A stretch of DNA of 64,000 nucleotides, from NCBI GenBank assembly GCA_003598055.1, contig QZKI01000065.1:1-64000 (forward strand). The letters run 5' to 3'. The notes beneath the pieces were generated by a model that saw only the letters and a program-made list of their open reading frames with translations, ran no database searches and had not been told where the DNA came from. Shown in pieces: positions 15,705 to 18,872 of the stretch; positions within the stretch are counted from its first letter, which is position 1, and each line of letters opens with the position of its first letter. Made by a program: the position numbers and the translations under genes. Source of the stretch: Candidatus Abyssobacteria bacterium SURF_17 (GTDB lineage Bacteria; Abyssobacteria; SURF-5).

Positions 15705-15719
15705 GAGAGTCAATTTGTG

Positions 15720-16217
15720 ATGGATTATAAGCGAGCTCTCCTCAATTTCAGTTATGTGGTGCCGAATATGCTGGCGGGAATGGCACGACCCGGACAAGTC
15801 AATCCCCTCAGGGAAGACCTCTCCTTTCTCAGGGCGCAAGGAATCAAGGCAATTCTCTCATTGAGCGAATCGCCGTTGGAAATGAATCCGCTTCATGAGA
15901 CTGATTTCTCCTACCATCACGTGCCTGTCGATGATTTTACTGCTCCGACGATAGAGCAGGTGGAGGAATGCATGGATTTTGTCGAGCGGATGCTCGAACG
16001 CGAAAAGAAGCCGGTTGCCATCCACTGCGGCGCCGGTTGTGGACGGACCGGTACCATGCTCGCCTGCTATTTTGTAAAACAGGGGCGGACAGCCGAGGAG
16101 GCAATAGCCGGTTTGAGGACGGTCAGACCGTGTTCCATCGAAACAGAGGGCCAGAAAGCCTTGGTCTATCAGTATGAAGAGTACCTAAAATACCGGCCAT
16201 CAACGAGTCAGCAGTGA
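15720..16217 (+). CDS. dual-specificity/protein tyrosine phosphatase-like
   Basis: A 165-residue cysteine phosphatase. The P-loop HCGAGCGRTG (C-x5-R) is complete, a general-acid candidate lies in VDDFTAPT, and the fold start is VPNMLAGMARPG. Similar archaeal and bacterial proteins dephosphorylate phosphotyrosine or small phosphate esters. First gene of an operon: its stop overlaps the GTG of the nuclease gene. Leader described separately. Confidence 0.85.
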   Translation: MDYKRALLNFSYVVPNMLAGMARPGQVNPLREDLSFLRAQGIKAILSLSESPLEMNPLHETDFSYHHVPVDDFTAPTIEQVEECMDFVERMLEREKKPVAIHCGAGCGRTGTMLACYFVKQGRTAEEAIAGLRTVRPCSIETEGQKALVYQYEEYLKYRPSTSQQ

Positions 16218-16705
16218 ATCACGCCTCCAGCCCTGCGAGCTTAGCCAGACCGAAGTTTCTTGCCGATGAGATGCTCGGCCGGCTCGCCAAGTGGCTGCGG
16301 CTTCTGGGCTATGACACAGCGTATGTGAGCGGAATTGCTGACAGAGACCTAGTGAGCTTAGCGGAGGCTGAAGACCGAATCATATTGACCCGTGATACTT
16401 CTCTCATCCTCCGAAAGCGTTGTCGCAGGTATATTTTCGTTCGGAGCGACCATTGGCGGGAACAGCTCGAACAAGTCTACCGGGAAGCCGGACTCAATTG
16501 CGAGTCGATGCTTACTTTATGCGCGCTCTGTAATTCTCGCCTTCAGCAGGTTGAGAAAGCGTCCGTCGAGACGAGAGTGCCGCCGTATGTGTACCACACA
16601 CAGGAGAGTTTCTACGAATGTAAGAACTGTGCCCGCTTGTTCTGGCCGGCGACACATGTCAGCAGAATTCTGGAAGAGCTGAGTTCCATAAGGGAGGAAT
16701 CGTAG
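16214..16705 (+). CDS. Mut7-C RNase domain (DUF82) protein
   Basis: A 163-residue PIN-like nuclease domain followed by a zinc ribbon. FLADEMLGRLAKWLRLLGYD and the Asp-rich ILTRDTSLI are the family's acidic-site motifs; the C-terminus has two CxxC knuckles (LCALCNSR and ECKNCARL). GTG start overlaps the previous stop (GTGA). The biological target of standalone Mut7-C proteins is not established. Confidence 0.87.
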   Translation: MNHASSPASLARPKFLADEMLGRLAKWLRLLGYDTAYVSGIADRDLVSLAEAEDRIILTRDTSLILRKRCRRYIFVRSDHWREQLEQVYREAGLNCESMLTLCALCNSRLQQVEKASVETRVPPYVYHTQESFYECKNCARLFWPATHVSRILEELSSIREES

Positions 16706-16706
16706 T

Positions 16707-18305
16707 ATGCGCAGAAGAGTGATATCCGTTTTCTGCCTCGCGTTGTTTCTGTTTGCAGCCTGTTCGGAGCGCGGGCAGAACAATGCAAGGGCGGAAGCGC
16801 AAGGTCTGCCCGGCGGGGGCAGTGATGAATTTCCCTCGGTGCTGAGCCCCTGCGTTGCAGGCTCGTTTTATCCTGCGGATGAGAACACACTCAAAGCTGA
16901 TATTGCGCGTTATTTGGAATCAGCCGAGCAGGCAAGCGTAGACGGCGACGTTATTGCTGTTATTGTACCTCACGCCGGATATGTCTATTCCGCTCCCGTC
17001 GCTGCGTACGCCTATAAGGCGATTGCGCACCAGGCCGAAACGGCAAAGCAAGAGTCGCTCAGGAAGTGGGACGCGGTCGTCGTTCTCGCGTTCAGCCACC
17101 GGAGTGCGTATCCCGGCGTATCCGTCTACTATCGGGGAGCGATAGAAACCCCGCTCGGCAAGGTTGTTGTGAACGAGGATGTCGCACGATTATTCATGAA
17201 AGACGACCCCCGCTTTTCTTTTTCACAGGACGCTTTCGCGGGAGAACATTCCGCAGAAGTGCAGATTCCCTTCATTCAGACCATTCTTCCCAACGTACCC
17301 GTCGTCCCGGTCGTCTTCGGCCGCCAGACGCCCGCGAATATCGAAGCTGTGGCAAACGCTCTTGGCCGAGTTGCGCGTGAGAAACGTATACTCGTGGTGG
17401 CGACAACGGACCTCTCGCATTATAAGCCATATGGAGTGGCCGTGGCGCTCGACCGACAAACGGTGGAGAGAATGGTGAAGGGTGATCCAAGGCGGATGGC
17501 AGAATACCTGAGCGCGCGCTACGACAGCATGTGCGGTCCCGGTCCGGTGCTTGCAGTCATGTCATATGCAGAGGCGCAAGGCGCTGTTCCGCTGCTGCTC
17601 AAGTATGCCAACTCTGGCGACACCGCCGGCAGCAAGGATGCGGTGGTGGGATATGCGGCGCTTGCTTTCGTGAAGAAGAATGCCGCCCAATCGCAGGCGC
17701 AGGCCGCGGAGCAAGTCTCTCCTGGCGAGCAAGAGAACCCCCTCTCCGAGTCCGAATTCCTTACGGCTCACGATAAGGAAGTTCTGCTCCGGCTTGCGCG
17801 TCGTTCGCTCGAGACGTTTGTTCGTGACGGCCATCTCCTTTCGGTTGACCCTCCCCAAAGCGAAAGACTAAGAGAGAATGGCGCTGCTTTCGTAACGCTC
17901 CGGAAGCACGGGCAGCTTCGAGGATGCATCGGACGAATGGATGCGATAGCGCCTCTTTACCAGACCGTCATTGAGATGACGGTGGCGGCTGCATCTCAAG
18001 ACCACCGCTTCCTGCCGGTCGAGCCAGATGAGTTGAAGGATATTGGAATCGAAATTTCCGTCAACACACCTCTCGTGCGCGTTTCCAGTCCCGACGAGAT
18101 CATTCTGGGAAAACACGGAGTTGTGGTTGCGAGAGGACTGCATCAGGGAGTGTTCCTCCCGCAAGTTGCGACTGAGACAGGCTGGAGCAAAGAAGAGTTC
18201 TTGACAAATTTGTGCGTGCACAAGGCAGGGTTGCCATCCGACGCCTACAAGAAGGACGCGGACCTCTACGTGTTTAGCTCGGTTATCTTTCACGAAGAAC
18301 GCTAG
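16707..18305 (+). CDS. MEMO-AMMECR1 fusion (AmmeMemoRadiSam B and A), predicted lipoprotein
   Basis: A 532-residue fusion. The N-terminus looks like a lipoprotein signal: a hydrophobic stretch ending LFLFAAC with Cys near residue 19. The MEMO-like domain (about 45-325) has the PHAGYVYSAP, FSHRSAYP and EHSAEVQIPF motifs. The AMMECR1 domain (about 350-530) has LRGCIGRMDAI and ASQDHRF. The two domains occur as A and B parts of the system named for its third partner, a radical SAM protein, which is not in this window. Cell-surface location would be unusual for this fold pair. It follows AGGGAGG directly after the nuclease gene. Confidence 0.87.
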   Translation: MRRRVISVFCLALFLFAACSERGQNNARAEAQGLPGGGSDEFPSVLSPCVAGSFYPADENTLKADIARYLESAEQASVDGDVIAVIVPHAGYVYSAPVAAYAYKAIAHQAETAKQESLRKWDAVVVLAFSHRSAYPGVSVYYRGAIETPLGKVVVNEDVARLFMKDDPRFSFSQDAFAGEHSAEVQIPFIQTILPNVPVVPVVFGRQTPANIEAVANALGRVAREKRILVVATTDLSHYKPYGVAVALDRQTVERMVKGDPRRMAEYLSARYDSMCGPGPVLAVMSYAEAQGAVPLLLKYANSGDTAGSKDAVVGYAALAFVKKNAAQSQAQAAEQVSPGEQENPLSESEFLTAHDKEVLLRLARRSLETFVRDGHLLSVDPPQSERLRENGAAFVTLRKHGQLRGCIGRMDAIAPLYQTVIEMTVAAASQDHRFLPVEPDELKDIGIEISVNTPLVRVSSPDEIILGKHGVVVARGLHQGVFLPQVATETGWSKEEFLTNLCVHKAGLPSDAYKKDADLYVFSSVIFHEER

Positions 18306-18364
18306 CATCTTCGATGCCAAGTCGGTGCTGTTCAGAGATTTTTCTCGCGCGTGAGATTTTTTTC

Positions 18365-18392
18365 TTGACAAAAAAAGAACACGTGATATCAT
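18365..18392 (+). promoter_or_regulatory. promoter of the response regulator gene
   Basis: TTGACA and TATCAT are 16 bases apart. The T-rich stretch just before may also end the upstream operon, but its stem is weak. Confidence 0.5.
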
Positions 18393-18443
18393 AGTGCGTG
18401 AACGTCACCCAAGCGATTACATTCCACCGGCGCGGGAATTCCC

Positions 18444-18872
18444 ATGAAGGCGACTTCGAAGAAGCGCTGCCGCTCCTCTCAAAAACGATCTCCAAAGAAC
18501 CCGAGAATCCTCGTGGTCGATAGCGATACCGTGATGGCCGAGCTGATGCGGAGTTATCTCGGAGACGAAAAGGGATACGAGGTTCTCATAGCTGAGACCG
18601 GCGCGAGCGGAATACGAGCGGCCCTCGAACAGTTACCTGACCTGATTCTTGTGGATTTCCGTTTGGCAGATATGAGCGGGCTGGAGATGCATGACAGGTT
18701 GCGGCAGAATCCGGCCACAAAAGAGATTCCCGTGATATATGTTTCCTCGTTCCTGACGCTGCGCACGATTGAGAAGGCGACCGACAAAGGCGCACGAGGA
18801 TTTATTAGTAAACCCTTCACGCTTTCGGAAATCTACACGAAAGTCGCCACGATCCTGAGCTCCTCCATTTGA
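18444..18872 (+). CDS. single-domain response regulator (CheY-like receiver)
   Basis: A 142-residue receiver with a short basic N-terminal tail. The phospho-acceptor Asp is in DLILVDFRLAD, the switch Ser region is VIYVSS, and the conserved Lys is in FISKPF. No output domain follows, so it would act by protein contact. No cognate kinase is adjacent. It converges on the leftward Fe-S subunit gene. Confidence 0.9.
   Translation: MKATSKKRCRSSQKRSPKNPRILVVDSDTVMAELMRSYLGDEKGYEVLIAETGASGIRAALEQLPDLILVDFRLADMSGLEMHDRLRQNPATKEIPVIYVSSFLTLRTIEKATDKGARGFISKPFTLSEIYTKVATILSSSI

Follow-up and report, generated by a model that had tools for sequence, protein, structure and literature searches.

The window analysed here, a 64,000-nucleotide stretch of DNA from Candidatus Abyssobacteria bacterium SURF_17, carries a gene in which a Memo and an AMMECR1 domain are fused behind a lipoprotein-type N-terminus. 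Our preferred reading, to which we give a probability of roughly 0.6, is that the predicted product is a membrane-tethered lipoprotein combining proteins B and A of the AmmeMemoRadiSam system, and that it and a putatively Tat-exported radical SAM (rSAM) protein together represent one example of an ancient branch of that system that is exported. The AmmeMemoRadiSam system itself is known, and it is the putative exported branch that looks new: export of these proteins was not described in the literature searched, as far as the texts were available, though Burroughs and colleagues may already have mentioned it in their 2019 paper on the Memo superfamily (J Biol Chem). Memo, AMMECR1 and their rSAM partner are conserved proteins whose reaction is unknown, and humans have both Memo and AMMECR1, a pair whose place of work has long been assumed to lie within the cell.

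The Memo-AMMECR1 fusion and its N-terminus

The fusion gene (16707–18305, on the plus strand, as are all window features given below) encodes 532 residues, with its stop within these coordinates. Pfam places a Memo domain at residues 48–319 (PF01875, 196 bits; 16848–17663) and an AMMECR1 domain at residues 361–528 (PF01871, 166 bits; 17787–18290), and the same chain meets the NCBIfam models of AmmeMemoRadiSam system proteins B (TIGR04336, 252 bits, cut-off 26) and A (TIGR04335, 167 bits, cut-off 99), confirming the fusion that an earlier note had proposed here. With both models above cut-off and a TIGR04337 rSAM gene in the genome, the protein resembles the known B and A components, but differs from them in being fused into one chain to which a lipoprotein-type signal has been added; the usual gene neighbourhood of the system, which is not strictly defining, is not met in the window genome. 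An AlphaFold model based on a 62-row alignment (mean pLDDT 90.6, pTM 0.64) shows a lone helix at residues 3–20, then a disordered, flexible linker (residues 20–47, 16764–16847, with pLDDT below 50 at residues 24–33) and then two well-folded domains.

Domain searches identify a Mut7-C RNase domain gene (16214–16705), separated from the fusion by a 1-base gap, and further upstream in the same run a dual-specificity phosphatase-like gene (15717–16217), giving the order phosphatase, Mut7-C, fusion, response regulator across 15717–18872. At L024 the order phosphatase, fusion, response regulator is also present. Phosphatase-like genes are found upstream of the fusion both there and in the frames of the ortholog locus L016, in which a frame similar to the Mut7-C gene lies directly 5' of the fusion.

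The Memo domain aligns with MEMO1 (PDB 3BCZ, 7KQ8) such that H89, H131 and C276 correspond to H49, H81 and C244, the residues given as iron or copper ligands of human MEMO1 in the available part of PMC11081632. In this alignment MEMO1 lacks an AMMECR1 domain; the window Memo domain, for its part, sits behind a signal peptide, as predicted below. In an alignment of 79 fusions (3 of 82 rows were excluded as short or cut), the three ligands are kept in 79, 78 and 77 of the matches listed, respectively. The His, His, Glu iron ligands of LigB-type extradiol dioxygenases are not met, the third ligand being Cys in 77 of the 79 fusions among the matches listed, as in MEMO1. The AMMECR1 domain is homologous over window residues 353–532 to the archaeal structures PH0010 (1VAJ), MM0484 (1ZQ7) and ST0229 (1WSC), whose chains of 207–230 residues lack a Memo domain, and its R405-G406-C407 motif and G409 are invariant (79/79 among the matches listed). 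The Memo domain also ends in a VGY motif, with V and Y present in 79/79 and G in 73/79 of the listed fusions; together with weak scores of the rSAM with pyruvate formate-lyase activases, this end offers a loose lead towards a glycyl-radical idea.

The chain begins with MRRRVISVFCLALFLFAAC, followed by SERGQ, in which a positive n-region leads into an uncharged hydrophobic run and then Cys19 (LFAAC). Under a motif rule, the n-region, hydrophobic run and lipobox cysteine of bacterial lipoproteins are all met, with residues 1–18 as the predicted signal peptide (MRRRVISVFCLALFLFAA; 16707–16760) and Cys19 (16761–16763) as the putative lipidated cysteine; F at position -3 is not the commonest residue in the lipobox pattern used. 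The genome encodes Lgt (224 bits with the LGT model). An equally hydrophobic uncharged 12-mer arose in just 50 of 200,000 shuffles of residues 2–46, and elsewhere in the chain no uncharged 12-mer is as hydrophobic as the N-terminal run. Direct reading places a Shine-Dalgarno-like GGGAGG (16692–16697) 9 nt 5' of the ATG at 16707, and none of the in-frame starts between the run and the Memo domain has a Shine-Dalgarno sequence.

The fusion occurs in all three genomes examined from the phylum of the window, at 61 percent identity, and all three orthologs have the Shine-Dalgarno sequence, the ATG, a hydrophobic run and an invariant Cys19, although the sequence of the run itself has diverged; in the ortholog at L016 the next in-frame start falls within the Memo domain. 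One could suppose that the run is untranslated or unused, which would make the window protein a B-A fusion of the usual cytoplasmic kind, as four fusions elsewhere (L074, L080, L086 and L097) have no signal at all; with a ribosome-binding site and ATG 5' of the run kept in every phylum ortholog, the outcome of the shuffle test, and signals that recur across many phyla, we consider this very improbable. A lipoprotein-type N-terminus, which the earlier note had suspected from the hydrophobic start, is thus supported, and its ortholog check came out in favour under simple rules; export and acylation of Cys19 are inferred from sequence. Our preferred reading would place the fusion, as a lipoprotein that combines proteins B and A, at the outer surface of the cytoplasmic membrane.

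A Tat-type radical SAM protein on a separate contig

The rSAM partner had been described as absent nearby, which is true of the window but not of the genome: a search found one TIGR04337 gene (409–411 bits, cut-off 220) on contig C25, ruling out a partner missing from the whole genome. As this gene exists and rSAM and fusion genes elsewhere lie side by side with matching signals, "absent nearby" could mislead. The placement of the fusion and the rSAM on separate contigs (C5 and C25) nevertheless counts against the preferred reading.

The C25 protein carries the radical SAM motif CxxxCxxC (as CNVECKFC) and scores as a member of the TIGR04337 family, but has a Tat-type N-terminus, with a twin-arginine motif ahead of a hydrophobic run, TRRSFLLTCGAAAAGAGSAFAA, in a stretch that reads TDHLTRRSFLLTCGAAAAGAGSAFAAYQW. 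Its start is uncertain, since a TTG at L012:6539 includes the motif and two ATGs lie past the hydrophobic run; the copy in a second genome of the phylum (G002) has an ATG start ahead of the motif (N-terminus MILRRDFLVKAGVTVAGVGG), which speaks for translation of the motif. The window genome encodes TatC (198 bits), and on a tree of rSAM domains the C25 protein groups with the exported-type sequences described below. We thus predict a Tat-type N-terminus, from which actual export is inferred, with the start codon remaining uncertain; the fusion would then partner with this Tat-exported rSAM.

Upstream of the C25 rSAM lies a DUF362-like gene, whose product also begins with a twin-arginine-like sequence. 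Between the two genes, L012:6043–6555 holds a 170-residue open reading frame, which we take to be GxxExxY-like (without a family search), followed by short repeats of CATCGGCGTT; this frame may have altered the 5' end of the rSAM gene. The rSAM was also considered as a selenoprotein and rejected, its lone in-frame TGA being an ordinary stop after PGVWNV.

Separate, unfused Memo and AMMECR1 proteins are also found in all three phylum genomes; the strict rule given below calls no signal on any of these three Memos. The window genome and G002 have such an unfused pair, yet their sole rSAM at E 1e-40 is of the Tat type. A third Memo-domain protein without AMMECR1 (contig C21, L005:1465–2706, minus strand) has about 115 extra N-terminal residues.

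Export signals on fusions and their rSAM partners across lineages

A collection of 84,980 species was scanned with the three-sequence phylum alignment, yielding at least 581 relatives. The best 80 of these were taken further and, judging by record titles, belong to Omnitrophota, Bacteroidetes, Chloroflexi, Aminicenantes, Planctomycetota, KSB1, Archaea and others. Two cultivable organisms, Marinilabilia salmonicolor (L089) and Anaerophaga thermohalophila (L063), are among the carriers of fusions. Signals were called without a SignalP-type predictor, by simple hydrophobicity and motif rules: start codons and Shine-Dalgarno sequences were scored, and an uncharged 12-mer with mean hydropathy of at least 1.3 within 40 residues was counted as a signal, either at the best-scored start (strict) or at any start (permissive). 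Among the matches listed, 59/81 fusions have a signal under the strict and 70/81 under the permissive rule, with 22 and 11 failing, respectively, and one further fusion without data; a lipobox-like Cys follows the signal in 21/81 (strict, among the matches listed). For comparison, these genomes also hold unfused Memo paralogs, counted as the 18 copies whose loci were obtained, and a signal is called in 0/18 (strict) or 3/18 (permissive) of them. The relatives were ranked by likeness to a signal-bearing query, which may have biased the set towards signal-bearing matches. Signals on most fusions lend comparative support to the extracytoplasmic role that the earlier note had drawn from the hydrophobic start, without any export experiment, and the exported branch would be distinct from cytoplasmic paralogs that often occur in the same genomes.

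At least one TIGR04337 rSAM is present in 49 of 53 fusion-bearing genomes, many of which have two. By eye, the 107 distinct rSAMs, made up of those adjoining fusions and those at 60 of 63 sites for which no locus had been given, fall into 52 with Tat-type or transmembrane N-termini, 53 that start at the domain, and 2 without data. A twin-arginine-type motif, by a rule written after looking at the sequences, precedes the hydrophobic run in 43/52 exported-type rSAMs vs 0/53 of the others, and the hydrophobicity rule at the best start finds a signal in 36/52 and 0/53, respectively. A maximum-likelihood tree was built from the domain without the N-termini (a quick search that left many branches with weak support); on it, 4 changes account for the two types compared to a mean of 35 in shuffles, so that the exported type appears to be mostly one old branch with a few losses.

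Memo and rSAM lie within one stretch in 36 loci, two of which (L158 and L180) have an unfused Memo. Where a fusion and an rSAM share a locus and both N-termini are readable, signals are found on both in 35 cases, on neither in 4, on the fusion only in 2 (L064 and L067) and on the rSAM only in none (Fisher 1.5e-4, uncorrected for kinship; three of the four "neither" cases are one clade). Additionally, eight further Omnitrophota genomes, chosen for their long rSAM frames, yielded eight fusions, seven of them with a hydrophobic N-terminus by eye; the eighth (G109, L249:257–2803, minus strand) is an 849-residue chain comprising an N-terminal hydrophobic, transmembrane segment, an rSAM, a Memo and an AMMECR1 domain, which means that the three domains must share one compartment there.

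These observations also bear on the possibility that the fusion is a surface lipoprotein while the N-terminus of the rSAM is a mere membrane anchor, leaving the enzyme facing the cytoplasm. Positive charges past the hydrophobic run in two Omnitrophota proteins (L027 and L066) and in L028 would suit such an anchor; against it stand the twin-arginine-type motif ahead of the run in most exported-type rSAMs, a CxxCH motif directly past the run in seven, the single N-terminal hydrophobic segment of the three-domain G109 chain, and the signals on neighbouring fusions, and we regard an anchor as quite unlikely. Under the preferred exported reading, the rSAM would fold with its [4Fe-4S] cluster and then be exported, via Tat where the motif is present and by another route where the N-terminus is plainly hydrophobic.

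Locus partners and possible chemistry outside the membrane

Whether exported proteins of this kind would still perform radical chemistry is a separate matter, and we hold as evenly balanced the wider proposition of an ancient and widespread system in which Tat- or Sec-exported rSAMs with tethered Memo-AMMECR1 proteins carry out 5'-deoxyadenosyl-radical chemistry outside the cytoplasmic membrane. Transmembrane carriers would supply its electrons, and a membrane SpeE-like protein that handles SAM-derived metabolites might assist. To our knowledge, neither SAM nor a low-potential reductant is known outside the membrane. Export signals on members of the branch restrict the choice of substrate to molecules of the cell envelope or the exterior; the rSAM radicals would modify an envelope molecule, with the Memo H/H/C metal site and AMMECR1 acting as partner or product-handling domains, and both this chemistry and its substrate are inferred. 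If an rSAM were active outside, ideas on where SAM radical chemistry occurs would need revision. An anaerobic envelope setting is plausible from the available part of a 2026 study (PMC13386939), which places AMMECR1 (PF01871) among the highest-weight anaerobe markers (3.38 for aerobes, 50.66 for anaerobes).

Electrons might reach the rSAM through NosR-like FMN/4Fe-4S proteins, DsbD-like proteins or c-type heme, depending on the lineage. In genome G021 (L133:3675–5993, plus strand), FMN_bind and Fer4_5 domains share a 773-residue chain with the rSAM, which lies at its C-terminal end, and at L111:2758–3876 (minus strand) an FMN_bind and Fer4_5 gene adjoins an exported-type rSAM. Both domains are shared with NosR/NapH-type carriers; the NosR model, however, scores only 53 and 39 bits, far under its curated cut-off of 1000, and the L133 module is attached to an rSAM. 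Eight other Omnitrophota frames, and two shorter ones, were checked as further candidates for NosR-rSAM fusions, of which only the G109 frame is long, and its extension is C-terminal and consists of the rSAM-Memo-AMMECR1 arrangement. Without a further fusion among the Omnitrophota frames, the NosR-rSAM link rests on one locus and one neighbour pair. Seven exported rSAMs, from one clade (L034, L038, L060, L061, L065, L099 and L146), have a CxxCH followed by histidines between the Tat signal and the domain; heme c attachment is possible, although binding has not been shown.

Such redox features would also suit a scenario of exported proteins in which the rSAM no longer performs SAM chemistry outside the cell, its cluster serving instead in electron transfer, sensing or metal handling with Memo. 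The unexplained presence of SAM outside the membrane speaks for this, as do the NosR-like, DsbD-like and c-heme-like features, which fit a redox chain, and the binding of iron or copper by human MEMO1 at the same ligands, according to the part of PMC11081632 that was available. The exported-type rSAMs have, however, kept the CxxxCxxC cluster motif in 52/52 and a TYxEP-type motif in 51/52 cases, about as well as their non-exported counterparts, suggesting that the catalytic fold is under the same constraint, and we judge a loss of SAM chemistry unlikely.

For the preferred exported branch, the loci supply operon partners as candidates for testing. A membrane spermidine-synthase-like gene is present in 31/52 exported-type loci vs 0/53 of the other type, DsbD_2 in 8 vs 0, and DUF362 in 11 vs 1; the queries for these counts were taken from exported loci, and the median locus is 12.9 kb for the exported and 10.2 kb for the other type. 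The SpeE-like family is numerous in the window genome, where no close copy of this gene was found (best 72 bits vs 289–291 in two relatives; the assembly is 92 percent complete). A crude pattern for the DLPEP-type motif matches only 3 of 34 SpeE-like proteins, which leaves their catalytic state open; their tie to SAM metabolism is suggestive only, and SAM supply outside the membrane remains an inference. Examples of membrane proteins with the spermidine-synthase domain are encoded at L034:6067–8229, L063:9486–11627 and L112:1–1488.
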